In this document: positions 3,669-25,440 of the stretch, piece by piece | How the letters are laid out: each line of letters opens with the position of its first letter | How positions within the stretch are numbered: the first letter of the stretch is position 1 | NCBI GenBank assembly: GCA_913774845.1 | Contig: CAJYJO010000021.1 | Location: forward strand, 1-59,751 | Source: an uncultured Microbacterium sp. | GTDB lineage: Bacteria > Actinomycetota > Actinomycetes > Actinomycetales > Microbacteriaceae | Reading direction: 5' to 3' | Length of the DNA: 59,751 nucleotides | Notes under the pieces: generated by a model | Told to the model about the DNA's origin: nothing | Databases searched by the model: none | Seen by the model: the letters and a program-made list of their open reading frames with translations, nothing else | Position numbers and translations under genes: made by a program

Positions 3669-5340
3669 TCTCGCTGTGCACCGGGACTTCGCCGGGAGCC
3701 AGCGACTGCGTGGTCACCGTCTGCGGGGTGGCGGCGCGGCATCCGGGGTCGTCCTGCGTCTTCACGACCAGCTGCTTCTCGTCGGACTCGAGCTCTCGAC
3801 GGGCGGCGTCGAGCGTGTAGCCCGTGTAGTCGACGATGACGACCTGACCGCTCGCGACCACGAGGTTCACGGTCGTACCCTTCGCGACGGCGGCACCGGC
3901 TTCCTGAGTGGCCGAGATGACCGTTCCCGCCGCGAGGGCGGGGTCGTTCTGGCGGCGGATCGATCCGAGCGAGAGACCGGCGTTCTCGAGGGCCGTGCGT
4001 GCCTGACTCTCGTTGATGCCCTCGAGCGTGGGCACGGTGGCCGTGTCGGGGCCCGTCGAGACGTACAGGGTCACCTTCTGCCCCTCGGCGACGCTGGTAC
4101 CGGCGGCGGGCACCGTGCTGACGACGTTGCCGGCGGCGATCTTCTCGTCGGACTCGTTGACGCGTCCGGTCGTGAGGTTCTCGGCCTCGAGCGTCTCGAC
4201 CGCGCGGTCGTAGGACATGTCGGCGACGTCGGGGACGGTCAGCGCCGTGGTGGGGACGCCCGTGCTGGGCTGGATCTGCATGACCCAGATGAGGACGGCG
4301 ACCAGCAGCACGGCGAGAACGCTCACGCCGGCCCAGATCCATGCGACCGGGGGTCCGGGCTGCGTGCGACGCATCGTGGTGTCGGTGCTGAGCTGTCGCA
4401 GCGATCGAGCCGTCTCGGCCGCTTGACGCGGGTTCGGTCCGTACAGCTCGTTCGACAGCGCCGACATCTGCCGCTTCGTGGGCGCCTTGCCGTCGATGGT
4501 CTCGTCGAGCGCCTCGCGGAAGCTCGCCGCATCCTGCGGACGCTGGAACGGATCCTTGGCCAGGGCGCGGAGGACGATGGCATCCAGGGCGCGGGGGATC
4601 CTCTCGTCGAGCTCGCTCGGCGGAAGGGGGGCCTCGCTGACGTGCTGGTACGCCACAGCAACGGGGGTGTCGCCGCGGAAGGGCGTGCGTCCGGTGAGCA
4701 GCTCGTAGAGCACGACGCCGGTGGAGTAGAGGTCGGCTCGCGCGTCGACCGACTCGCCCTTGGCCTGCTCGGGGGAGAAGTAGGCCGCCGTGCCGACGAT
4801 CGCCGTGGTCTCCGCGACGGTCGACGACGAGTCGGAGACCGCGCGGGCGATCCCGAAGTCCATGACCTTCACCCGACCGGCCTCGGTGATCATGACGTTG
4901 CCGGGCTTGATGTCGCGGTGCACCACACCGGCGCGGTGCGAATACTCGAGGGCCTCGAGGATGCCGTCGACGTAGCGCAGCGCCTCGTCGGTGGGCACGG
5001 GCCCGGCCGCGATGACGTCCTTCAGCAGACGCCCGTGCACGAGCTCCATGACGATGTACGGGACGGGACGTTCGACGCCGTCGGCACCCACCTCGGAGTC
5101 CTCGCCCGCGTCGAACACGCGCACGATCGTCGGGTGGGCCATCCGCGAGGCCGCCTGCGCCTCGAGCCGGAACCGAGTGCGGAACGCCGCGTCGCCGGCG
5201 AGATCGGCCTTGAGGATCTTGATGGCCACCGTGCGACCGAGCGTCTGATCGTAGCCACGGTAGACGCTGGCCATCCCGCCGCGACCGATGAGGTCGTCGA
5301 CGCGGTAACGGCCCGAGAGGACGCGCGTCTCAGTGGTCAC
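3640..5340 (-). CDS. pknB: Ser/Thr protein kinase PknB with three PASTA domains
   Basis: The 566-residue receptor kinase has a kinase domain at about residues 11-275 with GRGGMASVYRG, the catalytic [10 protein letters not shown] and DFG. One transmembrane helix lies near 333-353. Three extracellular PASTA repeats follow to the C-terminus, the last with two cysteines (DPGC and TVCSGS). PknB senses muropeptides or lipid II and controls growth and division. It is the last gene of the fhaA-fhaB-pstP-rodA-pbpA-pknA-pknB operon, 30 bp after pknA, starting at a GTG. The family usually has four PASTA units; three are visible here. Confidence 0.95.
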   Translation of the reverse strand: MTTETRVLSGRYRVDDLIGRGGMASVYRGYDQTLGRTVAIKILKADLAGDAAFRTRFRLEAQAASRMAHPTIVRVFDAGEDSEVGADGVERPVPYIVMELVHGRLLKDVIAAGPVPTDEALRYVDGILEALEYSHRAGVVHRDIKPGNVMITEAGRVKVMDFGIARAVSDSSSTVAETTAIVGTAAYFSPEQAKGESVDARADLYSTGVVLYELLTGRTPFRGDTPVAVAYQHVSEAPLPPSELDERIPRALDAIVLRALAKDPFQRPQDAASFREALDETIDGKAPTKRQMSALSNELYGPNPRQAAETARSLRQLSTDTTMRRTQPGPPVAWIWAGVSVLAVLLVAVLIWVMQIQPSTGVPTTALTVPDVADMSYDRAVETLEAENLTTGRVNESDEKIAAGNVVSTVPAAGTSVAEGQKVTLYVSTGPDTATVPTLEGINESQARTALENAGLSLGSIRRQNDPALAAGTVISATQEAGAAVAKGTTVNLVVASGQVVIVDYTGYTLDAARRELESDEKQLVVKTQDDPGCRAATPQTVTTQSLAPGEVPVHSEITLTVCSGS

Positions 5341-13515: not shown

Positions 13516-13758
13516 GTGGTTTGGAAAGCAACAGATGCGCAACAGTTCGGTGACACGATACGCAGAATGCGTAGGGAGCGCGGGATAAGCCAAGAATTAC
13601 TTGCGCACAAGGTTGGTATCTCGAAGAACCACATGCAGCTGCTCGAGGCAGGGCGGGGATCGTCTCGTTCCGACGGTCCTATATCGAATCCGCGCATGAC
13701 GACTGTCTACGGTCTAGCGGAAGCTCTGGACGTGACCGCGTCGGAACTGCTGCCCTGA
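13516..13758 (+). CDS. Xre-family helix-turn-helix regulator
   Basis: The 80-residue protein is essentially one HTH_XRE domain: FGDTIRRMRRERGISQELLAHKVGIS is helix 1 and the start of the HTH, NHMQLLEAG the recognition region, and TVYGLAEALDVTASELLP the closing helix. An insertion with SRSDGPISNPR follows the recognition helix. The start is a GTG with no strong Shine-Dalgarno sequence, so it may be leaderless. Its stop overlaps the ATG of the histidine kinase (TGATG), placing it first in the regulatory and lanthipeptide operon. Confidence 0.85.
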   Translation: MVWKATDAQQFGDTIRRMRRERGISQELLAHKVGISKNHMQLLEAGRGSSRSDGPISNPRMTTVYGLAEALDVTASELLP

Positions 13759-15098
13759 TGACCATCGCGCGCACCTCGGGCGGTTCCCTAGACGCTCAGC
13801 CCATCGCTGAAACCTCGCCCGAGAGTCGTTCACTTCTCTCCCGGGTGACGGATGGGCCCGTGACATCGCTGCTTCGCTCGCCGTTGTCGGCGGCGTTGAT
13901 TTTCCTCGCCACTGTCATTCCCGTTTGCAGCGATCCTTTGCTCGCGGTCCTTAGTGGAAGCGGCCAGTGGGGGCATATCTGGCCCCCCTTAGTTGTTATC
14001 TCCCTCGTCTCTCTCGGTTGCCTACTACAGGCAGTCGCGGCCTCGCAGCTCGCCTCTCATCCAGCGTTGAGCGTCGTCGGCACGTCGGCTTGCTACTTGA
14101 TCGTCGCCATCGGCCTGAACGTTCCGACTTGGGTAGCGCCGATGCATTTGGTGATCGGCATCTCGATGTTCGCTCTCGGGAGCTACGGTCCGGCGGGGCG
14201 CGCGGCACTTACCGTCTCCGTGGTCTTGGTCGCTGCCGTGGCTGTACTGGCGTTCTGGGCTCAAGAAGCGGGTCTACCGCCATCTGCGGTGCTGAGCTTT
14301 GTTCTCACTGAGGGTGGCGGCCTGGTCTCGGTCAGCGTGGCGGCTGTTGGGCTGGGGTTGCTGTGGTCTGCCCACGAGCGGAGGACCCAGGCCGCTCGCA
14401 AGCGAGCTCAGGACGCCGAGCGGGAGCGAGAGCGCGCTGTCGAGGAGTCTCGCAACGCCGAGCGCGGGCGCATTGCCCAAGAGCTGCATGATGTCGCCGG
14501 TCAGCACTTGGCTGGCCTGGTTTCCCTGTGTGATGCGTCGTTGGAGCTGGCACCGGCTCGACCCGCACAGGCTCTCGAACTCATCGAGGAGGTGCGGGCG
14601 GAAGGGCGGTACGCGGCCGCCAGCCTGTATGGGGCACTCGGAGACCTGCGGGCAGTCGACACGGCCACCCAATCCCCCACTCCGGACCTGCGGCGGATCG
14701 ACGCGCTTATTGACTTCTGGTCTGAGCGCGGAATGAAGGTGTCCCTCAGAGCCCAGGGCGAGCTTGGACTCCTCCCTGTCGTTGTGTCAACGACGGCCTA
14801 CCGAGCGGTGAAAGAGGGGCTCTCAAACGCCGCGAAACACGCGCCCGGAGCGCCGGTGGATGTGACTGTCCGTGTGACCTCCAGTCGCCTGGACGCGACA
14901 GTCGTGAATGGTCCCGCTAACTGGCGCCGGGCGGCAGAGGAAGAGCTTGGGTTGGGTTGGGGATTGGACAGTCTGCGCGACAAGCTCGCCCTCGTTGATG
15001 GCAAGCTGCACTCGTCGGCCGAAGGTGCGGGCGGCTGGAGGTTCACCGTGCAGATCCCGTTCCCCCGCCAGGGGGAAGCGATAGATGACCACGCCTGA
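13758..15098 (+). CDS. NarL-type sensor histidine kinase of the island
   Basis: The 446-residue protein has six to eight predicted membrane helices in residues ~35-210, a coiled-coil linker rich in Arg/Glu, then a HisKA_3 dimerisation domain with His244 in RIAQELHDVAGQHLAGL and a HATPase domain (KEGLSNAAKHA N-box, then GLGWGLDSLRDKL). No extracellular sensor domain is present, as in kinases that detect membrane-associated ligands. It overlaps the response regulator by 14 bp. It is clearly related to the chromosomal kinase at 31.8-33.1 kb. It probably controls the lanthipeptide genes or senses the product (inference). Confidence 0.9.
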   Translation: MTIARTSGGSLDAQPIAETSPESRSLLSRVTDGPVTSLLRSPLSAALIFLATVIPVCSDPLLAVLSGSGQWGHIWPPLVVISLVSLGCLLQAVAASQLASHPALSVVGTSACYLIVAIGLNVPTWVAPMHLVIGISMFALGSYGPAGRAALTVSVVLVAAVAVLAFWAQEAGLPPSAVLSFVLTEGGGLVSVSVAAVGLGLLWSAHERRTQAARKRAQDAERERERAVEESRNAERGRIAQELHDVAGQHLAGLVSLCDASLELAPARPAQALELIEEVRAEGRYAAASLYGALGDLRAVDTATQSPTPDLRRIDALIDFWSERGMKVSLRAQGELGLLPVVVSTTAYRAVKEGLSNAAKHAPGAPVDVTVRVTSSRLDATVVNGPANWRRAAEEELGLGWGLDSLRDKLALVDGKLHSSAEGAGGWRFTVQIPFPRQGEAIDDHA

Positions 15099-15774
15099 GG
15101 TGATTCGCGTTCTCATCGCGGACGACAACAGGCCATTCCGGCGTGGTGTTCGACTGAGGCTGGAGAACGCGGAAGGAATCGTCGTCGTCGGCGAAGCTGC
15201 GACCGGCAGGGACGCTGTACGCGGGGCCCTCGCTGAGAAAGCCGACATTGTCCTGATGGACCTTGAGATGCCGGGCATGTCCGGCATCGAAGCGACGCGC
15301 GCTCTCGTGCGTGAGACGGAGGGGGCCACCAAAGTCGTTGTTCTCACCAGCCATGGAGAGCACAATTTGGTGCTTCGGGCGCTGGCCGAGGGTGCAAGCG
15401 GGTACCTTCTCAAGACGCATGACAGCTCTCAAATGATTGACGCTCTCCGTGCCGCCCACCAGGGTGAGGCCCTCGTTTCCACTCGCGTCGCGGCCCCCGT
15501 TCTCCAGGAGCTTGCTCAGTACAGCGCGTCCGACGATGACCAGCGACGCCTCCGCTCCCTCAGCCCCGCCGAGACGCGCGTGGTAGATCTGCTCAGCCGG
15601 GGCGTGACGACGAATGAAGCCATCGCTACCCAGCTGAAGGTCTCGGTCAACACGGTTCGTTCACACATTCAGTCCGCGCTGAAGAAGATCGACGCGGCAG
15701 ATCGAACGCAGCTCGCTCTCTGGGGCGCACGTTACCGGCACCTGCTTGGAACTCGTCCAAAAGGACGAACTTAG
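15085..15774 (+). CDS. LuxR/NarL-family response regulator of the island
   Basis: The 229-residue protein has a receiver domain with the acidic pair DD at residues 13-14, the phospho-acceptor Asp59 in IVLMDLEMPGMSG and Lys in YLLKTHD. The C-terminal LuxR-type HTH (about 155-215) shows LSPAETRVVDLLSRG and VSVNTVRSHIQSALKK. It pairs with the kinase that overlaps its 5' end. A 189-bp spacer with no gene separates it from lanKC and is where its binding site would be expected; I see no clear palindrome there. Confidence 0.9.
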   Translation: MTTPEVIRVLIADDNRPFRRGVRLRLENAEGIVVVGEAATGRDAVRGALAEKADIVLMDLEMPGMSGIEATRALVRETEGATKVVVLTSHGEHNLVLRALAEGASGYLLKTHDSSQMIDALRAAHQGEALVSTRVAAPVLQELAQYSASDDDQRRLRSLSPAETRVVDLLSRGVTTNEAIATQLKVSVNTVRSHIQSALKKIDAADRTQLALWGARYRHLLGTRPKGRT

Positions 15775-15963
15775 TCGTTCAATTCGCGGCCCGCGCCGCG
15801 CCTGGCGTCGACACCTGTGATGCAACGAGGTCCCGATGAACGGACCATTTTGCGAAGGTTGGAGGACGTTTAGCGACCGAAGCCAGCGCTCGTCGGCCCA
15901 GTCTGCGCGGCGCACCATTTCTCCCGTCGCTCGAACGGGCGCAGAACGGTGCGGGTGGTCGCG

Positions 15964-18534
15964 ATGGACTCGTTGTATCCCACGTTCGCGCGCGCCGATC
16001 CCGTGTTCTATGACCACCCCGCTCGCGTTCTGCGGGCCATGAGTACTCAATACGCCGTCGCAACTCCAGAGTCGTGGACGAAGCACGAGGACGGAGCCTG
16101 GGTCTTCTACGCCCCGCCCCTGCTAGTGCTTCCCGAGCAGGGGTGGAAGGTGCACCTCAGCACTACGGCAACCCAGGCGGAAGAGCTCCTGCAAATTGCA
16201 GGACGATTCTGCGTGCGTCACAAGCTGCCGTTCAAACATCTGCCGGACTCGTCTGCGCTCGCGGCTTCCAACGCCAAGGACGCGAACCGTGCCAGCTCAG
16301 GAAAGTTCGTCACCATCTATACCTCCACAGAGGGGCAGCTCAACGAGGCCCTCCACGCCTTGGGAGACGAAACGGACCACCTGAAGGGACCTCATGTCCT
16401 CTCCGATCTGCGCTGGTCGAAGGGACCAGTCTTCGTCCGGTACGGAGGATTCCACCGTCTTTTCGTAGACGGCGTCGACGGCCGCGTGCCCGCAATCCGT
16501 CACCCGAAGGGGCATCTCGTTCCCGATCTGCGCCTACCCGTGTTCCGCCTGCCGCCGTGGGTCAGAATCCCCGAACTCCTGAAGCCACTCCTCGACGCAT
16601 TGGACGCACCGGCTCCCGAAGGTTTCCCCGTTATCACCGGAGCGCTACATCACTCCAATGCGGGTGGGGTCTACACCGGCATCGACAACGGGTGTGATGT
16701 CGTCGTGAAAGAAGCCCGTCCGCACGCCGGGGTGACCCCGGACGGGCGAGACGCGATTGAGCGTTCATTGCACGAAGCCGCAGTTCTCCGCCAGCTTGCT
16801 GACAACTCGCAGACGGGTTCGCTGCTTCGACAGTTCGAGGTCCACGGCCACCACTATCTCCTGTTGCGTCGGGAGACCGGCAAGCCTCTGCAGCAGGCAA
16901 TCGTCGCGCGGCATCCGCTCATTAAGGCCGACGCTTCCTCCGACGAGATAGCTGATTACCGTGCGTGGGCTACGGACGTGAGCCAGCGTCTCGAGCTGGC
17001 GGTGCTCGCACTACATGAGGCCGGCTTCCGTCACGGTGACCTTCACCCCGGAAACATCCTGGTGAGCGACGACGGGGGTGTCGTCCTGATCGATTTTGAG
17101 ATGGCGACTCCGACGCACGCTCCCTCTGGTGCCGTCATCGGCTCGCCGGGATACACCGCTCCTCCTGACGTGCGCGGGGTGGATGCCGATCTGTTCTCCC
17201 TCCGCCGCGTCCAACTGTCGATCTTCGCGCCGTTGGCGCCCCTGCTAGACCTGGACCCTGACAAGGCGGCGCACTTGTCCCTGTGGGCGAGAGATCGCTT
17301 CCACCTTGACGAGGACGATCTCGGGAAGCGGCCCAGCGATGAGCTGAATACAGGGCAGGCTGACATTGACATCGACGCTGTGCGGAAACAGCTCCTCGCC
17401 GATGCGACGCCAGAACGCTCAGACCGCCTCTGGCCGGGAGACCCCGCGCAGTTCTCCGAGCCGAGCTACGCGCTCGCCCACGGCGCCCTCGGGCCTATCC
17501 TTGCGCTACACGCACAGCAGGGCGACGTTCCCGACCATCTCATCGAATGGGCCGAACGTGCCTGCATGGCGGATCAGCCCAGGGCGGGCCTCATGGATGG
17601 CCTCTCCGGTGCCGGAGCCGCTTTTTCGCTGCTGGGTCGCTCCGAGACGGCCGAAGAACTGCTGGGGCGGAGTCTTGAAGCCCGACTGCGATGGGATGCA
17701 CCTGGTTTGTACAGCGGGCCCGCCGGGACGGCGCTGGCCTATCTTCGTGCACACACACACCACCCAGAGCTGGTGGGCACCGCTCGGGCAATCTTCGACG
17801 AATTGGCCGAGCGGTCAAACGGCTGGCAAAACCGCAGCTCTGAACCACTCGCGACAGGATTGAGTGGTGTGCTGCGCGGCCCCACGGGGGTCGCTCTGCT
17901 CGCGATGCGCTTGTACGACTTGTGCGGGAGTGATGAGCTGCTGGAGTTGGCGGGGGCGGCTGTGCGCAGCGACCTCGAGCGGTGTGTGGTGGGGGAAGAC
18001 GGTGGTCTGCTCGTCAACGAGGGGTGGCGCCTCCTTCCCTATTTCGGTGCGGGTTCAGCAGGAATTGCGACGGTGATACTCGAACTAGCCCGTCGAGATC
18101 CGACGTTCGACAGCGCGTCAGTACTGCCGGGCCTTTGCCGGGCCGTGTCCCCGGAGTTCGTTCTCGAACCGGGGCTGTTCGAAGGTCGAGCGGGGCTCAT
18201 CCTTGCGTCGGATGCTTTGCGTGATCAGGCTCCCCCTTCGGCCGGCCGCGAATTGCAAATGGGTCGACATCGGTCCTATCTGCGCATGCATGCTGTGTCT
18301 CGACCCGTTGGCATGGGGTTCCCCGGCAAGCACCTGCTGCGCCTTTCTTGCGATCTCGCAACCGGGTCCGCCGGCGTCCTCTGGGCACTCTCCCGAGTTC
18401 GTCGACAGGCTCCAGCAACCCTGCCGCTTCTCGACCTCCCCCCGGTCGAAGCGCCCCAGCACGGGGTCCTGAGCGAGGGGGGAGGTGAGATCAGTGGGGT
18501 TCATACTTTCGTTGCAGAACCTAGATCGCGGTGA
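15964..18534 (+). CDS. Class III lanthipeptide synthetase LanKC (kinase-lyase-cyclase)
   Basis: The 856-residue trifunctional enzyme has an N-terminal lyase-like region (1 to about 220). A Ser/Thr-kinase-like domain follows, with NAGGVYTG, the ATP-binding Lys in VVVKEARPH, HGDLHPGN near 357 and DFE. The C-terminal LanC-like cyclase (about 499-835) has five double-glycine repeats (YSGPAGTALA, RGPTGVALL, FGAGSAGIA, FEGRAGLIL, ATGSAGVLW). The zinc-binding Cys/Cys/His of class I, II and IV cyclases are missing, which defines class III (RamC/LabKC). The ATG at 15964 was chosen because MDSLYPTFARADPVFYD matches the family N-terminus. It phosphorylates, eliminates and cyclises the peptide encoded at 18494-18616. 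Confidence 0.93.
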   Translation: MDSLYPTFARADPVFYDHPARVLRAMSTQYAVATPESWTKHEDGAWVFYAPPLLVLPEQGWKVHLSTTATQAEELLQIAGRFCVRHKLPFKHLPDSSALAASNAKDANRASSGKFVTIYTSTEGQLNEALHALGDETDHLKGPHVLSDLRWSKGPVFVRYGGFHRLFVDGVDGRVPAIRHPKGHLVPDLRLPVFRLPPWVRIPELLKPLLDALDAPAPEGFPVITGALHHSNAGGVYTGIDNGCDVVVKEARPHAGVTPDGRDAIERSLHEAAVLRQLADNSQTGSLLRQFEVHGHHYLLLRRETGKPLQQAIVARHPLIKADASSDEIADYRAWATDVSQRLELAVLALHEAGFRHGDLHPGNILVSDDGGVVLIDFEMATPTHAPSGAVIGSPGYTAPPDVRGVDADLFSLRRVQLSIFAPLAPLLDLDPDKAAHLSLWARDRFHLDEDDLGKRPSDELNTGQADIDIDAVRKQLLADATPERSDRLWPGDPAQFSEPSYALAHGALGPILALHAQQGDVPDHLIEWAERACMADQPRAGLMDGLSGAGAAFSLLGRSETAEELLGRSLEARLRWDAPGLYSGPAGTALAYLRAHTHHPELVGTARAIFDELAERSNGWQNRSSEPLATGLSGVLRGPTGVALLAMRLYDLCGSDELLELAGAAVRSDLERCVVGEDGGLLVNEGWRLLPYFGAGSAGIATVILELARRDPTFDSASVLPGLCRAVSPEFVLEPGLFEGRAGLILASDALRDQAPPSAGRELQMGRHRSYLRMHAVSRPVGMGFPGKHLLRLSCDLATGSAGVLWALSRVRRQAPATLPLLDLPPVEAPQHGVLSEGGGEISGVHTFVAEPRSR
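18481..18488 (+). promoter_or_regulatory. Strong Shine-Dalgarno of the precursor gene
   Basis: GGAGGTGA lies 5 bases before the GTG at 18494, inside the last codons of lanKC. It is almost the perfect anti-16S complement. It decides the start of the small overlapping gene over the in-frame GTG at 18485. Confidence 0.8.
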
Positions 18535-18616
18535 GAACGAGCGAGACGCGGTGTTCGCGAGCTCGTTCAGCATGGGCGCGTGCTACAGCAGTACGTCGAC
18601 GGGTTTCTGCCGCTGA
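18494..18616 (+). CDS. Class III lanthipeptide precursor peptide (labyrinthopeptin-like), overlaps lanKC
   Basis: A 40-residue peptide in a different frame from lanKC, starting at a GTG 41 bp before the lanKC stop. The leader contains ILSLQNLD (residues 4-11), matching the class III recognition motif (ILELQNLD in labyrinthopeptin leaders, LFDLQ in SapB, from memory). An acidic stretch (RGENERD) leads to a core beginning near residue 19. The core holds two Ser-x2-Ser-x3-Cys motifs, SSFSMGAC (23-30) and SSTSTGFC (32-39), which class III enzymes convert to labionin or lanthionine rings, and a final Arg. Precursor after KC is also the order in the ram and lab clusters. Ring chemistry and leader cleavage site are inferred. 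Confidence 0.87.
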   Translation: MGFILSLQNLDRGENERDAVFASSFSMGACYSSTSTGFCR

Positions 18617-18624
18617 TGTGCCAA

Positions 18625-18654
18625 GGGGCGTGGGTGCGGGCGCATTCACGCCCC
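18625..18654 (+). terminator. Hairpin 8 bases after the precursor stop
   Basis: GGGGCGTG (18625-18632) pairs perfectly with CACGCCCC (18647-18654) around a 14-base loop. There is no strong T-run. It could terminate or stabilise the lanKC-precursor transcript, or act as a partial read-through site. Confidence 0.5.
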
Positions 18655-18699
18655 GACAAACGCGATCACGCGACTCGCCGGCTGAGCACGGACCTTGTC

Positions 18700-19140
18700 C
18701 TACGTGGCGGCGAGCTGGGCGTTTCGGCGAGCGATCAGGCCCCGCAGATACGGGACGAGAATCACCCTTCCTGCAACCACCCCGAATGCGGGTGACGAGA
18801 CGGTCACGGTGTCGGTCATGAGCGTGCCACCGCTGCCGTCAGCCACGAAACGGTGCTCGTGGCGGAACGCTTTGAACGGACCGGATACCTGCTCGTCTAC
18901 GAACACATCCGGACGTCGAAAGTCGGTGATGCGAACCGTCAAAGAAAACCAGGCCCCCAAGTGACGCGCACGCCACGTGACCTCCTCGCCATGGCCAATT
19001 CGGCCCGTCGTCACTCCTGCAGTCGCTTTCTCTGCAGAATCCTTCATGGTTGCGACGTGTGCATCTATATCCCTAGCGAGATCAAACGCGGCAGATGGCG
19101 GCATCGACAGGGAGGTGGTGAGAGAGAATTGACTACTCAT
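18700..19140 (-). CDS. SRPBCC-family protein
   Basis: The 146-residue protein fits the SRPBCC (START/polyketide cyclase-like) fold: an N-terminal strand and helix (SLSMPPSAAFDLARDIDAHV), the middle signature THXXXW-like VTWRARHLGAWFSLTVRITDFRRPDVFVDEQ, and FRHEHRFVADGSGGTLMTDTVT, ending in a long helix. Such small proteins bind hydrophobic ligands; none can be named. It is the last of three minus-strand genes and converges on the lanthipeptide precursor. No catalytic residues are evident. Confidence 0.8.
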   Translation of the reverse strand: MSSQFSLTTSLSMPPSAAFDLARDIDAHVATMKDSAEKATAGVTTGRIGHGEEVTWRARHLGAWFSLTVRITDFRRPDVFVDEQVSGPFKAFRHEHRFVADGSGGTLMTDTVTVSSPAFGVVAGRVILVPYLRGLIARRNAQLAAT

Positions 19141-19162
19141 GGCTTTGCTGGCACCGCTGCTG

Positions 19163-19561
19163 TCACGTCGTCGTCCGATACTTTCGAGATATCCGCATCA
19201 GGAATTGCCAGCACAGGGCCCACAATACGCAGGGACCGAGAATGACAAGGCTGGCCGCCAGCGCCCCAGCCCAACCGCCGTCCGTCAAGAAGACGAAGCC
19301 GAGCATAAGAAAGCCGCCGAAGGCCGGGACAAGCCACCAGAGCCGCTTACCCACCACTCGAAAATTCGAGAGGGGGGCGGACACGACAACCATTGCGCTC
19401 AAAAAGAGTGTCAGGATGCCCAGGTTTGGAAGGGGTGTTACGTATCCCAGGGTGGCGAAGAAAAGGAATAGCGATATCGTGGTAATGAAGAGACTCGCCA
19501 ATCCGACTGCCATAGGAGCCAAAATTCCTACCGGCCGTGTGTCGGATTGACGAGTCTCCAT
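19163..19561 (-). CDS. Small integral membrane protein, four helices
   Basis: A 132-residue protein with four strongly hydrophobic segments (about residues 12-37, 45-65, 73-92 and 98-122) and short loops. I recognise no family. It lies 22 bp upstream of the SRPBCC gene and 15 bp downstream of the DUF3238-like gene, probably one transcript. Next to a bacteriocin-type cluster, small membrane proteins are often immunity factors; that is only a possibility here. Confidence 0.65.
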   Translation of the reverse strand: METRQSDTRPVGILAPMAVGLASLFITTISLFLFFATLGYVTPLPNLGILTLFLSAMVVVSAPLSNFRVVGKRLWWLVPAFGGFLMLGFVFLTDGGWAGALAASLVILGPCVLWALCWQFLMRISRKYRTTT

Positions 19562-19576
19562 TGTCCCAATCTAACG

Positions 19577-20602
19577 TCAGAAGTTCCTCGAGGCGGTGTA
19601 CGACTTGTCGCAGGTGGCCACCCAACCGAGGAGGCACCAGTAGTTGGCGTCGCTGAAGTTCCAGACCTTCACCCAACGCTGCTCGCCCGTGGTGTTGTAG
19701 TTGTACGAGGCATAAGACTCATGGTTTGGGACATTGTTGTGTCGGCCGTTTACAGCGACCGAGCCCGCGCGCCAGATCTGAACGGTCTCGCGGTATTTCA
19801 CGCTGCCCACAGTGCAGAACGGGTCCGCGACATCATGACGCACATCAAAGTGAGCCACTCCGCCGCTGACCCACGTGTCGAGGACCTGGATTCCATCGGG
19901 ATTAGCCTGCTTCGTCTCGACAACCGATCCGCCCACAACCTTCCGGGTGACCCCGGTGCTCTTCTCCCAGTAGAGATTCCAAGGGGCGGGGTTCTGCCAG
20001 TTCGCCGCCACTCGCAGCGCGGTTCGGTGCGACGGCAGATCGAAGTTGGAAGGTGAGCGGTCGCCGCGGTTGTCGCCCTTGAAGGCTTCCGCGCCGCTAC
20101 AGGTCATGCCTTGATACCACGCGATGGGGACCGTCTCCTGGGGGATGTAAGTCATGTGCACCCACTGATTGAGTTGCTGAGTCGGTACGGCGTACGGGGT
20201 CACATTGGCATTCAACGCCGCTCGAGCGGTGGTAGCCGCCGGGAGGGTGTGCGCCGTGATCGACAGGGACATTGTGTCTGGATCTGTCACCGGCGCGGAT
20301 GCGTCCAGCAGGCTGCCGGGAGTGTCTGCACCGGAGGTATCTGTTGCGGACTCAACTTCGTATGTGTAGGAAGAGCCGGCTCGCAACCCGACATCGCGGA
20401 AGCTGCCATCGACTGTGGTGCCAAGCACTGCCCCGTCTCGCGTGACAGTTGCTTCCGAGGTGTATTGCTCTCCAAGCGAAATTGTCACCTCATCTGTGGT
20501 GCTCAACACCGCCGCCAAAGGTGGACAGCGGCGGTGAGCGTGCGCGAGCGCAGAGAGCATAGTTTCATTCGATTCCCAGTCTGAATGGTCCACTCGGCAC
20601 AA
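19577..20602 (-). CDS. DUF3238-like protein with fibronectin-type N-terminal module
   Basis: The open frame encodes up to 341 residues. After an unusual N-terminus, residues ~38-95 resemble a fibronectin type III repeat (FRDVGLRAGSSYTYEVES). The rest resembles DUF3238: a Tyr/Trp-rich segment, KGDNRGDRSPS, then HFDVRHDVADPF and NNVPNHESYASYNY, with two Cys near the C-terminus. DUF3238 proteins of Bacillus and actinobacteria are secreted and of unknown role, but no signal peptide is visible here and neither ATG (20602 or 20560) has a ribosome binding site. The 5' end may be truncated or frameshifted. The family assignment is from memory. Confidence 0.55.
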   Translation of the reverse strand: MCRVDHSDWESNETMLSALAHAHRRCPPLAAVLSTTDEVTISLGEQYTSEATVTRDGAVLGTTVDGSFRDVGLRAGSSYTYEVESATDTSGADTPGSLLDASAPVTDPDTMSLSITAHTLPAATTARAALNANVTPYAVPTQQLNQWVHMTYIPQETVPIAWYQGMTCSGAEAFKGDNRGDRSPSNFDLPSHRTALRVAANWQNPAPWNLYWEKSTGVTRKVVGGSVVETKQANPDGIQVLDTWVSGGVAHFDVRHDVADPFCTVGSVKYRETVQIWRAGSVAVNGRHNNVPNHESYASYNYNTTGEQRWVKVWNFSDANYWCLLGWVATCDKSYTASRNF

Positions 20603-21003
20603 CCTCGTCGATCACGTGAATTTCGGACGTTAGTCGAGAAGAACGGGTGCGGCTTCAACTTCGGAAAGCTATCGCGAACCGGCGAGTCTCGTGTCAGCCA
20701 AATGGGGGACATGGGTGCGTAGTGTTCGAAAACACTGCGGCTGTGCCAGCTGATCAATTCCGCGCGTTCTCGCGGCTATCGAGTTGCACGGCCTATGATT
20801 GTTCTGACCGCACGACGGCCGTAGCTAAATACTTTTCGTCTGAATGGATGAATTCTCCTGTCTATTTTCGACGCGCCGACATGTCGTCAATTTACTGGCC
20901 CTGGCCGGGCCTTTATTCGTGGCGGGTGAGACACCTTACGGAAATGACCGCCACATGCGGTTCACTTTTTCCGACAGCATCCGGCTGGTACAAAGGAGAA
21001 ATC
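20603..21003. other. Gap between divergent genes in the island
   Basis: This 401-bp stretch separates the DUF3238-like gene and the secreted 109-residue protein gene. The DNA is noticeably richer in A/T than the core genome. The only firm element is AAAGGAGA (20995-21002) before the ATG at 21004. No convincing gene or clear promoter pair is seen. Confidence 0.5.
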
Positions 21004-21333
21004 ATGAAGCGCAAGAAAACCCTCGCCGGGCTTGGCCTGGCTGCGGCTGCACTGATGGCTTTGGGGGTTGCTGCTCCCGCCCAGGCAGCGACGGCGAGCT
21101 ACTCGTCGCAGGTGTGCGCGTCCGCGCTGCGCCCGGCAATTTACGGCGCCTCCGTCGGCACTCTCGCGCTGACCATCTACGCGCCCGGCGGAAACCGCAC
21201 CGACTCCTGGTACAACAGCAGCCGGACCACACGCGTCAAGCTGACCAACGCGGGTGAGAATTTCAGCAATGGTGGCCGGGCGACCTACTCCGGATCGCTC
21301 ACGGATAAGGGTCAGGATTGCCGTCTGCTCTGA
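21004..21333 (+). CDS. Small secreted protein, bacteriocin-like size, unknown family
   Basis: The 109-residue product has a classical signal peptide (MKRKKTLAGLGLAAAALMAL) with cleavage expected after APAQA (about residue 28). The mature part of ~80 residues is Ser/Thr/Asn/Gly-rich with two Cys (CASALRP near its start, QDCRLL at its end) that could form a disulfide. AAAGGAGA ends 1 base before the ATG, with its core about 5 bases away. A strong terminator follows directly, so it is a single-gene transcript. Size, secretion and the adjacent exporter operon suggest a toxin, bacteriocin or signal; it lacks the lactococcin 972 signature. Function unknown. Confidence 0.8.
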   Translation: MKRKKTLAGLGLAAAALMALGVAAPAQAATASYSSQVCASALRPAIYGASVGTLALTIYAPGGNRTDSWYNSSRTTRVKLTNAGENFSNGGRATYSGSLTDKGQDCRLL

Positions 21334-21348
21334 CGTCTCGACGAGAGG

Positions 21349-21378
21349 AAGGGTGGACGCGTGAGCGCGTCCACCCTT
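21349..21378. terminator. Bidirectional intrinsic terminator
   Basis: An 11-bp perfect stem, GGGTGGACGCG (21351-21361) with CGCGTCCACCC (21366-21376), is flanked by AA before and TT after with a TGAG loop. It stands between the convergent 109-residue secreted protein gene and the lipoprotein gene. Confidence 0.88.
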
Positions 21379-21390
21379 CTGTTGTGCGCC

Positions 21391-21933
21391 TCAAAGGCTG
21401 CGGGGGCAGGCGCTGAGGAGGGCTGTGAGGTCATCGTCGCTCAGCGTCCCGGTGTACTGGGAGTACGCCGACCACAACCCACCCGTCTGATGGTAAGCGT
21501 CGACATAGGCCTGCTCGGACGGCGGCTTGTCAGGGTTGTAGCCTTTGTCGCTGAGACACTTCCACTCCCAAAGCGAGTGGGGAAACACAGTCTTGATCTG
21601 CTCGTCGGATAACGTCGGCGGCAGCTGGTCGTACCCGAATTGGGTTGCGCACGCATCTGCATCTGCAGTGTAGAGATCGAACTGCTCGGGCGGGATGGTC
21701 CCGGTTCGATAACCACCATCGGTACCGGTCGAGACGGGCCACCCGTTCGCCGTGAGGCAGGAAATCATGTCGGTCGCAAAGTTGGGACGGGAACCGGCAT
21801 CAAAATCCAAGGCGGGCGGGCTGACTTCCGGGACCGGCGTCTCCTGTGCGCACGCGGACAGACCCAGCGCCAGCGCACCCGCTGTGACGAGCAGGAATGC
21901 GCCACGCGTCCAGGTGGTCTTCTGCGCTTTCAT
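21391..21933 (-). CDS. Lipoprotein of unknown function, last gene of the exporter operon
   Basis: The 180-residue protein has a lipoprotein signal peptide with lipobox LSAC (about residues 25-28), so it should be anchored outside the membrane. The mature part is Pro-rich at first, then contains four further Cys (MISCLTANGW, ADACATQFGY, EWKCLSDKGY, LLSACPRSL) that could form two disulfides. I recognise no domain. It lies 29 bp downstream of the permease gene in the same orientation and may be an accessory or immunity component of that transporter (inference). Confidence 0.75.
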   Translation of the reverse strand: MKAQKTTWTRGAFLLVTAGALALGLSACAQETPVPEVSPPALDFDAGSRPNFATDMISCLTANGWPVSTGTDGGYRTGTIPPEQFDLYTADADACATQFGYDQLPPTLSDEQIKTVFPHSLWEWKCLSDKGYNPDKPPSEQAYVDAYHQTGGLWSAYSQYTGTLSDDDLTALLSACPRSL

Positions 21934-21962
21934 AGTTCCTCCAAGAGGTGAATGGATAGGGG

Positions 21963-23051
21963 CTACGCGACGCGGAGTTCGCGAATCGGGTCGCGCTGAC
22001 TTGCGGCGATTCCGGGGAGGACGGCGGCTCCGACAGATACGGCAACGGTGAGGATCGCGGTGCCGACGACGAAGGGCGCGTCAGGTAACGGGTCGCCTCC
22101 GGCAACGAGAATGACAAGCGAGGCGCCGACGCCGACAGCTGCTCCGAGCGCGGACAATAGCGCGGTTTGCAAAATGATGAGTGAGACGATGAGTCCCCGC
22201 GTCGCCCCGAGCGCGCGACGTCGGCCGAAGTCCTTGCGGCGCATCATCACAAGCCCGTACAGCACCACGGAGATAACTAGACCGGCCAGCCCCAAGAGCG
22301 CCACCACGAGGCCCTTAGAGAAGGAACCTAGTTGCGACTCAATGACCGCGCGCAGATCAGCAAGCGCAGAGCTGGTTTGTACCGTGACGGAGGCCGGGTT
22401 CTCAGGCGCCACGAGCGAGAGGGCAGCAGAGCTGACTGCCCCGACCGTTTCAGGGGCGTTAGCAATGACGATAATTGTGCCGACAGTCTCATTGGCGCTG
22501 GCGTCTCGCGGGGCAAGCAGAAGCGGTTCGAACTGCTTCAGATAGTCCGGGGTGGTCAATTCGGCTACTACCCCAAAAGTGCGGCCATGAACCTCGGTAA
22601 CGGCGCCGGCGGGCTGGTCCATGCCCAGAAGATCCAATGCCTGTGGCGATGCCCACGCGGACGGTACCTGCTTGATGTGCAAGGCCGGAACACCCAGCGC
22701 GCCGGTGGAATCCGTGTAGATGTAGCGCAAGGGGACGCGGGGCCCGTCGAGGATCGCGGCGTTGGTGGCGTCTGTTACCGGCGAGAACGCTGCGACCCAT
22801 TCGACGTCTGCGAGTGAGCGGAGGCGGGCGACGACGTCGCTGGTCACCCCGGCATCACTATCTGCGCGGATGAGGATTGAACGTGAGCCCGCTGAATCGA
22901 TGGTGCCGAGGACGCTGTTGGAGGCGCCGACGGAGCGTCCGGTAGTCAACATGACCGCAACCATCATGGCGACGATGGTGAGAACAGTGATCACCGACGC
23001 CGTCTTGTATGAGCGGGCGGTGAGGACGGCCTCTCGCAGCAGCGCCAACAT
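21963..23051 (-). CDS. FtsX-like ABC transporter permease
   Basis: The 362-residue protein has one N-terminal helix (about 20-40), a large extracellular domain (about 45-240) and three C-terminal helices, the MacB/FtsX topology. The segment MMRRKDFGRRRALGATRGLI near 275-295 is the typical cytoplasmic coupling region, and the C-terminus ends RDPIRELRVA as in this family. The start ATG overlaps the ATPase stop by one base. The longer upstream frame is a shadow of the ATPase gene. It probably moves a peptide or lipid outward with the adjacent ATPase and adaptor. Confidence 0.9.
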   Translation of the reverse strand: MLALLREAVLTARSYKTASVITVLTIVAMMVAVMLTTGRSVGASNSVLGTIDSAGSRSILIRADSDAGVTSDVVARLRSLADVEWVAAFSPVTDATNAAILDGPRVPLRYIYTDSTGALGVPALHIKQVPSAWASPQALDLLGMDQPAGAVTEVHGRTFGVVAELTTPDYLKQFEPLLLAPRDASANETVGTIIVIANAPETVGAVSSAALSLVAPENPASVTVQTSSALADLRAVIESQLGSFSKGLVVALLGLAGLVISVVLYGLVMMRRKDFGRRRALGATRGLIVSLIILQTALLSALGAAVGVGASLVILVAGGDPLPDAPFVVGTAILTVAVSVGAAVLPGIAASQRDPIRELRVA

Positions 23052-23731
23052 CAGAGTTTTATCTCCACATCGCACTGTGCGGCGACGGCCGGCGAGTGTG
23101 TGACGATGATGACGGCGGCACCCTCGTCGGCACGTTGCCGCAGCGCATTGACGACCAGATCCGCGGTTATCGGGTCGAGATTCCCGGTTGGCTCGTCCGC
23201 GAGAATGACGTCGGGGCGGTTTAGTAGGGCCCGACACAGCGCGATTCGTTGCGCCTGGCCGCCGGAAACCTGGCCCGGGCGTCGCAGCAACGGTGCCTCA
23301 ACTCCGAATTGCCGCAACAGTTCCTCCGCCCGAGCTTCGTCGTCACGGCGGGAAGCCTTTCGGTAAAGCGAGGTCTCGACGACGTTGTCGAGCACGGTTC
23401 GTGTGGGATCGAGTGCTGCATCTTGAAAGACGAAGCCGTAACGGTGGGCACGCGTAATCGAACGTCGACGGTCGCCCCCATCGGAAACCTCCTCGCCGTT
23501 GAGGAGAATGTGCCCCGCGGTGGGTCTCAGCATGAGGCCGAGGATGTACAGCAGGGTCGACTTCCCGCGGCCCGATGGGCCGGTCAAGGAGGTCATTGTC
23601 GAACCGGTGAACCGCGCCGACCAACCGCTCAGGAGCGGTGCCGCGGTCGAGTAACCGAACTCCACGTCCCGCGCTTCAAGCAACGCTGGCGGCGTGGTGC
23701 CTGCAGATGTGACCGGCTCAGCGAGAGGCAC
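23051..23731 (-). CDS. ABC transporter ATP-binding protein (MacB/LolD type)
   Basis: The 226-residue ATPase shows Walker A GPSGRGKST, Q-loop FVFQDAALDP, signature VSGGQAQR, Walker B VILADEPTGNLD and the H-loop in IIVTHSP. It belongs to the group that pairs with FtsX-like permeases. It overlaps the adaptor gene by 14 bp and the permease gene by 1 bp. The Walker A has Arg instead of the usual Ser/Cys at the third variable position, which is tolerated. Confidence 0.94.
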   Translation of the reverse strand: MPLAEPVTSAGTTPPALLEARDVEFGYSTAAPLLSGWSARFTGSTMTSLTGPSGRGKSTLLYILGLMLRPTAGHILLNGEEVSDGGDRRRSITRAHRYGFVFQDAALDPTRTVLDNVVETSLYRKASRRDDEARAEELLRQFGVEAPLLRRPGQVSGGQAQRIALCRALLNRPDVILADEPTGNLDPITADLVVNALRQRADEGAAVIIVTHSPAVAAQCDVEIKL

Positions 23732-24800
23732 TGGCGGACACCTTCACCCTCTGGCCCTCGGAGAGCTCCTGGACGACGGACTGGCCGCGGGCGGATGCCG
23801 TGACCGTCACCGGGACGCGCTGGCCGTCCTCGAGCACTACCTCTACCTTTCCGCTTGCGTCCGTCTGAAGGGCGGCGCTGGGTATGACCATCCCGGTGAC
23901 AGGTTCTTGCAGGATGACTTTTGATAGCAGCTGCGATTGTCCGGTGATGGGGATGGCCGGACAGGCGTCCGCACATATTTCTCGTGCATCGGGTCCGCTG
24001 AGCGTGATGCTCACCAGCGCATTGCTGGCGTCCCTGGTCCGCCCCGCAACATGGGCCTGCCAAGTCCCGCCGTCTGGGGCGGTGATGTCCACGCGCATTC
24101 CGTCGGCGATGAGCGCGGCCTGAGACTCGGCTACCGAGACTGTGAAGTCAGGGGCCTCCGGGAGCACGGAAATAGCAGGTTCGCCACCTGCAAGGGAGGC
24201 ACCGACCGCGATGTCGGTGCTCAAAGCCACACGCGCGGGCAAGGTCGGCAAGAAGATCACGTCGGAGGCCTGCACCACACCTGTTTGCTCGACACCAAGC
24301 TTCTTCTGCCACGTCTTGATGGCCTGCTCCGTGCCCACACCGACCTGGCCGTCGATGGCGTTCCGGTATAGGCCGATGTCGGACAGCATTTGCTGCACCT
24401 GTGCGACATCGGGGCCTTCGAGATCGCGCCCCACGTCACGAAACATGGGGATGGTCCCCGCGCCGACTGCCACGGGCCTCAACCCGACCGAGTAGACCGT
24501 GTCCCCAGCCGCGACGCTCTGCCCGGCGGTGACACTGAGGCTGGTGACGATGCCCGCCGCCCTATTGGCACCCGCCGGCGTCGTCTGCCATTGAGCGGAG
24601 GTATTGACCGTCAGCGCCTCGCCGACCTGTCCCTTCGTAACGACCGCGGTGGTCTCATTCACCGCGCTGGCGAGAGGGTCCTCGGCCGGACGCAACACCG
24701 TAAATCCCGCCCAGGCAATTGCGGCGCCCGCCACGAGCAACAGCGCCCCGCACGAGGCCCACCTGATCCAACTCATAGACCGTTGATCCTCACGCCTCAT
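23718..24800 (-). CDS. HlyD-like adaptor with peptidoglycan-binding domain
   Basis: The 360-residue protein starts with a membrane anchor (about residues 10-32), then a HlyD/MacA-like lipoyl-type segment, a PG_binding_1 module near 130-170 (GPDVAQVQQMLSDIGLYRN and VGVGTEQAIKTWQKKLGV), and beta-rich C-terminal domains (IPSAALQTDASGKVEVVL). It should link the FtsX-type transporter to the cell wall. The ATG at 24798-24800 was chosen because it overlaps the upstream stop by 11 bp. Four Cys near 265-280 region (REICADACP) may form a disulfide. Confidence 0.85.
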   Translation of the reverse strand: MRREDQRSMSWIRWASCGALLLVAGAAIAWAGFTVLRPAEDPLASAVNETTAVVTKGQVGEALTVNTSAQWQTTPAGANRAAGIVTSLSVTAGQSVAAGDTVYSVGLRPVAVGAGTIPMFRDVGRDLEGPDVAQVQQMLSDIGLYRNAIDGQVGVGTEQAIKTWQKKLGVEQTGVVQASDVIFLPTLPARVALSTDIAVGASLAGGEPAISVLPEAPDFTVSVAESQAALIADGMRVDITAPDGGTWQAHVAGRTRDASNALVSITLSGPDAREICADACPAIPITGQSQLLSKVILQEPVTGMVIPSAALQTDASGKVEVVLEDGQRVPVTVTASARGQSVVQELSEGQRVKVSASASR

Positions 24801-25440
24801 TCGAAGCCACGCTTTGAGAGACCCGAGCGCGTCGCACCCGCAGATACAGGGCGGCACCGACAGCAGCTGCCGCAGCGGGGATTAGCATTGCGTTGCAGGA
24901 TGCGACGCCGACCGCTGCGGCAACGCCAACCGCGGCCGCGGCCGCGTAGGTCCATTGCAAGCGCGACTTCCGAGCAGCGACGCCTACGACGGAGCCCACG
25001 ATGGCCAGCGTCATGGTCAGGAAGAAGTGAACACTCCAGAACACGACGCTTATGGGCCCAATCCGTGTCACAAAGACCGTCGCGCCATCTGCTGTTGAGG
25101 TGAGGTTGCCCGTCGGCCAGAAGGCAACGAGAAGAAACCCGAACAGGGTAAGACCAAGCGCCGTCACCGACAGCGTCCGAGGCCCATCCCACACCCAGCG
25201 AACTCGGCGAAGTGAACTGGGGCCGTCGAGGGATTCCTCGGCCTCCCGGGCGACCTCCTCGGGGCTTCCCAGCCGGAGCAGGGTCAGCTCGAGGTCCTCA
25301 CCGTTGTCGAGGGCGTCGTCGATGTGCGCCCGGAGGCCGCCAAGCAGCTCCCGACGTTGAGGGCGGCTGAGTGACGAGGAAGCGATGCGTACCCGCCGCA
25401 GCCAACGCTCGGCGACCGGGGGTGTTGTGTCACGTCTCAT
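24790..25440 (-). CDS. HAAS/DUF1700-type membrane protein
   Basis: The 216-residue protein has an N-terminal helical domain (SLSRPQRRELLGGLRAHIDDAL and LRLGSPEEVAREAEES) typical of HAAS/DUF1700 modules that follow PadR regulators, then four hydrophobic helices (about 88-108, 125-150, 160-180 and 182-200). In such operons the HAAS protein partners with the PadR regulator encoded upstream. The ATG at 25438-25440 overlaps the padR 3' end by 11 bp. Function beyond that is unknown. Confidence 0.78.
   Translation of the reverse strand: MRRDTTPPVAERWLRRVRIASSSLSRPQRRELLGGLRAHIDDALDNGEDLELTLLRLGSPEEVAREAEESLDGPSSLRRVRWVWDGPRTLSVTALGLTLFGFLLVAFWPTGNLTSTADGATVFVTRIGPISVVFWSVHFFLTMTLAIVGSVVGVAARKSRLQWTYAAAAAVGVAAAVGVASCNAMLIPAAAAAVGAALYLRVRRARVSQSVASNEA

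Follow-up and report, generated by a model that had tools for sequence, protein, structure and literature searches.

Does the 3'-end of a lanthipeptide synthetase gene from Microbacterium also encode the substrate of the enzyme? The stretch of DNA considered here, hereafter referred to as the window, comprises 59,751 nucleotides and contains a lanKC gene. A first-pass annotation placed a 40-codon gene, beginning with a GTG at 18494 and read in another frame, across the last 14 codons of lanKC. It further proposed that the gene specifies a class III lanthipeptide precursor and that the DNA derives from the Microbacteriaceae. The latter proposal is supported, with the record titles of near relatives pointing to Microbacterium itself. 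As described below, the segment from 18494 to 18616 very probably encodes a class III lanthipeptide precursor, and this assignment rests on the adjacent LanKC gene with its above-cut-off score, on conservation of the leader and core, on a ribosome-binding site, and on the selection acting on the frame.

The precursor gene and its synthetase

The coordinates of the relevant features are provided in Table 1. The encoded peptide, VGFILSLQNLDRGENERDAVFASSFSMGACYSSTSTGFCR, is read from the GTG at 18494-18496 to a TGA at 18614-18616 and contains 40 sense codons. The lanKC stop codon falls at 18532-18534, such that 41 nucleotides, within the last 14 codons of lanKC, are shared by the two genes in different frames. 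A reading of the sequence confirmed these aspects of the first-pass annotation as well as its Shine-Dalgarno element with a five-base spacing. In a program-made list of open reading frames, the precursor frame begins three codons upstream at GTG 18485. This start was ruled out because the codon lies inside the Shine-Dalgarno sequence and because the homologues begin at the position equivalent to 18494. That the gene is unannotated, as had been claimed, is plausible given that about 55% of the class III precursors treated in PMC7268733 lacked annotation.

Table 1 Features of the precursor locus in the window.
Feature	Coordinates	Strand	Basis or remark
Sensor histidine kinase (HisKA_3)	13758..15098	+	Pfam HisKA_3; relatives at 13 of the 14 named loci
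Response regulator, NarL/LuxR type	15085..15774	+	Pfam Response_reg, GerE; relatives at 13 of the 14 named loci
lanKC, class III lanthipeptide synthetase (lyase, kinase, cyclase)	15949..18534	+	NF038151; RamC_N, Pkinase, LANC_like; start alternatively ATG 15964
Shine-Dalgarno sequence GGAGGTGA	18481..18488	+	Within lanKC; spacer GATCA (5 nt) to GTG
Precursor gene (lanA), predicted	18494..18616	+	GTG start, 40 codons plus TGA; homologues, selection
Leader region V1-A22, recognition motif FILSLQNLD	18494..18559	+	G2, L5, L7, Q8 identical in all 23 rows; leader end inferred
Core motif 1, SSFSMGAC (Ser23-x2-Ser26-x3-Cys30)	18560..18583	+	S23, S26 identical in all 23 rows; C30 kept in 90% or more
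Core motif 2, SSTSTGFC (Ser32-x2-Ser35-x3-Cys39), then Arg40	18587..18610	+	C39 identical in all 23 rows; S32 and S35 kept in 90% or more

The lanKC product scores 811 bits against the class III LanKC model NF038151, for which the cut-off is 575, and matches the Pfam families RamC_N, Pkinase, and LANC_like. Over residues 48 to 828 it aligns with 8sap, a solved LanKC chain, and the protein is collinear with the solved LanKC structures. A cognate LanKC, one of the hallmarks of class III, is encoded beside the precursor. Relatives of the enzyme at E up to 1e-60 were found in 22 plasmid records with a best identity of 39%, the closest being from Streptomyces; in a count of these records by the first word of their names, none was named Microbacterium.

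The peptide itself displays two further hallmarks. The leader contains LSLQ, an example of the LxLQ motif that is frequent in the leaders of class III peptides (PMC7268733), within the stretch ILSLQNLD that had been pointed out in the first-pass annotation. The two tandem Ser-x2-Ser-x3-Cys motifs described there are also present, namely S23/S26/C30 and S32/S35/C39, and these hold the only two cysteines of the peptide. From Ser 23 onward there are eight Ser/Thr residues, and thus the predicted loss of four waters is one among several possible outcomes. The calculated [M+H]+ of the untagged precursor initiated with Met is 4354.96, falling to 4282.92 upon four losses; a core beginning at Ser 23 that had lost four waters would have an [M+H]+ of 1806.70.

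An alignment of 23 precursors, designated A1, reveals seven invariant columns (G2, L5, L7, Q8, S23, S26, and C39) and five that are nearly so (M1, L10, C30, S32, and S35); the conservation of M1 is slightly overstated, as one TTG-started row was entered with Met. A1 excludes the peptide from Xylanimicrobium (L070). All twelve columns correspond to the leader motif region or to the Ser/Ser/Cys positions, and the residues between them vary. In several homologues SxxSxxC replaces SxxSxxxC, the spacing to the cysteine being two or three in most relatives. The first-pass annotation had made its case depend upon conservation of the frame and of the SxxSxxxC motifs at homologous loci, and the proposal withstood this test, the motifs being kept over the 23 aligned precursors.

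Short frames with GTG starts that overlap other genes can arise by chance in GC-rich DNA, and such an origin was considered here. Indeed, a single SxxSxxxC motif means little by itself because such matches are frequent both in the window, with 86 in six frames, and in its dinucleotide shuffles, with a mean of 32. A frame in which the leader motif precedes two adjacent SxxSxxxC motifs, with no stop in between, was observed in none of 300 shuffles and exactly once in the real window; the double motif lacking the leader turned up in a total of two shuffled frames. In a comparison of seven ungapped homologues over 39 codons, with the start codon omitted and 21 pairs summed, the differences numbered 87 at first, 107 at second, and 250 at third codon positions. 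For the window versus the six other homologues, pS ranged from 0.45 to 0.66 and pN from 0.19 to 0.27. As judged from these comparisons, purifying selection acts on the precursor frame. The conservation found among the homologues refutes a chance origin, and given the selection, the shuffles, and the conserved ribosome-binding site such an origin must be considered extremely improbable.

Scored against the SapB/AmfS model (NF033212, cut-off 25), the window peptide reaches 18.3 bits; the values for RamS (PF19402, gathering cut-off 24.3) and lanthi_III_b (cut-off 30) are 18.6 and 15.5 bits, respectively. All three matches are collinear with the peptide, albeit below cut-off, and the first two models span the leader and both core motifs. 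With E values of up to 10 admitted, each of these two models recognizes 21 of the 23 family members. When 21 members were scored singly (the window peptide and 20 of the 22 others), seven passed one or more of the NCBIfam class III cut-offs, and four of the 20 others exceeded the 25 bits of NF033212. Precursors of this sort escape the family models: no NCBIfam class III cut-off is reached by the window peptide or by 13 of the 20 others, and one peptide (L027) had no NCBIfam family match at E up to 1. By virtue of its enzyme, leader, and core, the window peptide is a predicted class III precursor that formally lies outside the curated subfamilies.

Coupling to lanKC and distribution of the family

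The position of the precursor gene relative to lanKC was tallied for 28 distinct sequences among loci L001-L070, with L078 and L079 falling outside the 28. Eleven overlap lanKC by 32-47 nucleotides, 16 lie 1-17 nucleotides past its stop, and one is fused to it in frame. The start codon is ATG in 25, GTG in one (the window), and TTG in one, with none in the fused sequence. The Shine-Dalgarno sequence is GGAGGTGA at 25 and GGGGGTGA at the other three. In 12 of the 16 non-overlapping sequences, the TGA inside the Shine-Dalgarno element is the lanKC stop itself. From these counts it is concluded that the overlap is incidental and set by where the next stop happens to fall; the constant trait is a tight coupling to the end of lanKC. 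The first-pass annotation had suggested a search for the same overlapping gene behind lanKC in other genomes. The gene does recur at other loci, but a conserved gene-in-gene arrangement was ruled out, since the overlap occurs in just 11 of the 28.

The fused sequence (L002:1498-1617 and L033; genome G027, contig 3) continues the end of LanKC in one 938-codon open frame and has no ATG, GTG, or TTG of its own near the Shine-Dalgarno element. The same peptide is encoded by separate genes at L031 and L035. The fusion may be an artifact of assembly, a sign of decay, or a genuine joining of enzyme and substrate.

Used alone as a query, the window peptide matched 12 of 98 genomes at E up to 1, of which the five weakest matches (E 0.38-0.84) were excluded as relatives. 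Searches with A1 identified relatives in at least 29 of 366 genomes of the same genus (E up to 0.001) and in at least five of 396 genomes of an order-wide sample, all from the same genus; both counts are lower bounds, as 18-20 first-look candidates were scored per genome. Of the 14 loci with relatives on named contigs, 13 are from Microbacterium and one is from Xylanimicrobium (L070). LanKC itself was observed above cut-off in 34 of the 366 same-genus genomes, at 35 loci, and a member of the precursor family follows it at 25 of these, including the locus of the window and the fused one of G027. Class III clusters have also been described in Brevibacterium (PMC5719810). No description of the Microbacterium precursor family was found in the open-licence literature searched; the supplementary precursor tables of PMC7268733, which lay beyond that search, may include members.

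No member of the family was found behind LanKC at the remaining ten of the 35 loci, one of which (L048) ends at the end of its contig. A different LxLQ-type peptide takes its place at L022, and L045 and L046 show weak matches of another peptide type (E 0.002-0.006). No recognizable precursor peptide was observed within 700 bases behind LanKC at L040, L041, L042, and L044. At L043 (G279) LanKC is followed, at about 4062-4330, by a pair of short peptides with the C-terminal sequences SSVSYNCG and SSASWNCGG, which look like another precursor pair, possibly of the lipolanthine type. At L047 (G026) MKKILEMQAISVETETGSLDDAQWSLASYSYCNGFPTSWESYHHC, which has an unusual core with Tyr and His, lies at about 4133 and is followed by an ABC-transporter-like frame.

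A degenerate second copy of the precursor core (SHRTVLASTLSISLCRSTVSTVC) is located at L061:9339-9455 downstream of an intact one. Only fragments of LanKC were found at L078 and L079, beside the precursor and a histidine kinase, and at L051, where a fragment of about 320 residues adjoins the kinase and regulator. These fragments suggest that the pathway has been lost in places.

The shared gene set and the predicted path to the product

The families found in more than four of 15 loci (the window and the 14 named ones) were LanKC with 15, a histidine kinase with 14, and a response regulator with 12, counted by greedy choice; there were no others. By tblastn, all of the 14 named loci but one, which is a 3.3 kb contig, contain the kinase and regulator. 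The shared unit is composed of a histidine kinase, a LuxR-type response regulator, LanKC, and the precursor. The arrangement varies, with the kinase and regulator lying behind the precursor at L066 and other genes separating the regulator from LanKC at L061, L062, and L064. Representatives of these intervening genes, one of each, encode a second LuxR-type regulator and a protein that has a thioester domain and DUF5979 repeats.

A relative of an ABC ATPase was found near three of the 15 loci, namely the window, L064, and L070, the last having two, with one directly behind the precursor. The search employed one window ATPase as the query against the fetched flanks, some of which are short (3.3 kb for L060 and 7.9 kb for L066), and thus distant ATPases may escape it. 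Among the nine LanKC loci without the precursor family that were searched (L022 and L040-L047), an ATPase was present in five (L040, L041, L045, L046, and L047). On these counts, taken within the fetched flanks, a dedicated exporter in the cluster was rejected, and the MacAB-like genes at 21963-24857 are not regarded as part of the cluster. Downstream of the window cluster, at 21004-21333, lies a gene for a small secreted-looking protein (MKRKKTLAGLGLAAAALMALGVAAPAQA then SYSSQVCASALRPAIYG...).

A scan of ten window proteins (13758-23731) revealed no protease. Four matches in the genome to the M1 family, which is the type of AplP, do not single out a leader protease. AplP-type proteases are reported to act on class III leaders, and the homologues MicP1 and MicP2 occur in M. 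arborescens (PMC13039773).

These components suggest the following path. Expression would probably be set by the upstream two-component system, and translation of the precursor probably begins at the strong Shine-Dalgarno sequence at the end of lanKC, coupled to that of lanKC. By analogy with the family, the leader helix FILSLQNLD would dock on the kinase domain of LanKC, where leader binding has been described (PMC10604976). The enzyme would then phosphorylate and eliminate core Ser/Thr residues, after which each cysteine would close a ring with one serine (lanthionine) or two (labionin) of its motif, leading to two adjacent rings. Removal of the leader would fall to a protease, perhaps one of the AplP type, whose gene lies elsewhere.

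Ring type and possible role of the product

The Sx2Sx3C motif gives rise to lanthionine in some class III peptides and to labionin in others (PMC7268733), and the determinant of the outcome is not yet understood (PMC9415263). The first-pass annotation favored labionins and a labyrinthopeptin-like product. Its class III assignment and diverged core stand, but the two labels are not established; the two-motif layout is also that of the SapB/AmfS and RamS models.

Labyrinthopeptins have an ILxLQ leader and two tandem motifs, as does the window peptide, and also carry extra cysteines that form a disulfide. They share with the window system a class III enzyme (LabKC of Actinomadura namibiensis), and the leader ILxLQNLD resembles that of labyrinthopeptin A2. 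With two SxxSxxxC motifs in its core, the window peptide may be a labyrinthopeptin-like peptide proper in which both become labionins, although we would stop short of calling this probable. The peptide lacks the extra Cys pair, its other core residues differ, and SxxSxxC occurs in place of SxxSxxxC in several homologues. Known class III peptides point in both directions: rochsin A from Streptomyces rochei, to which the window peptide is likened here by description, has two adjacent motif-derived rings that are both labionins, whereas SapB and AmfS, treated alongside it, have two lanthionines, and the ring type is hard to predict from the synthetase sequence (PMC13380574).

A surface-active or signaling peptide of the SapB/AmfS type with two lanthionines is also conceivable, though somewhat doubtful. 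Its models are the best found for the window peptide and extend across the leader and both motifs, the enzyme is again a class III LanKC, and a LuxR-type response regulator is nearby. The ramS precursor gene adjoins the synthetase gene, as is the case here. Microbacterium, however, does not form aerial hyphae, the model scores remain below their cut-offs, and no ABC ATPase was found near 12 of the 15 loci. At the window locus a kinase and regulator lie upstream. Finally, Ser and Thr abound in the core, which ends in Arg, whereas hydrophobic residues are reported to be important for a morphogen of that group (PMC13380574).

Lipolanthine clusters carry decarboxylase and acyl-chain genes, and no family for decarboxylation or acyl transfer was observed among the ten window proteins scanned. 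An avionin-containing peptide came under consideration because microvionin, likewise made with a class III synthetase, is from Microbacterium arborescens (PMC11521342, PMC10435860, PMC9415263). Avionin is formed from a decarboxylated C-terminal cysteine (PMC9415263), and lipolanthines bear an acyl chain. In the window peptide there are two motifs and an Arg follows the last cysteine; on the basis of this core the lipolanthine reading was rejected as most unlikely.

The product could serve as a surfactant or morphogen like SapB, as a signal, or as an antibacterial. One rather speculative proposal, which we consider unlikely, is that Microbacterium harbors an undescribed subfamily of class III lanthipeptides whose four genes, for a histidine kinase, a response regulator, LanKC, and the precursor, form a compact cassette lacking its own exporter. 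The peptide would then not be an antibiotic but a signal that the cell makes for itself and senses through the neighboring histidine kinase.

What has been found is a further class III precursor family in Microbacterium, the peptide being of a known kind related to SapB, AmfS, and the labyrinthopeptins. A small family of probable ring-containing peptides is thereby added to a genus for which the literature consulted names microvionin as the class III product. The 23 distinct precursor sequences are ready for co-expression with their cognate enzymes, and the natural variation between SxxSxxC and SxxSxxxC spacing offers material for studying how a LanKC comes to install labionin or lanthionine.
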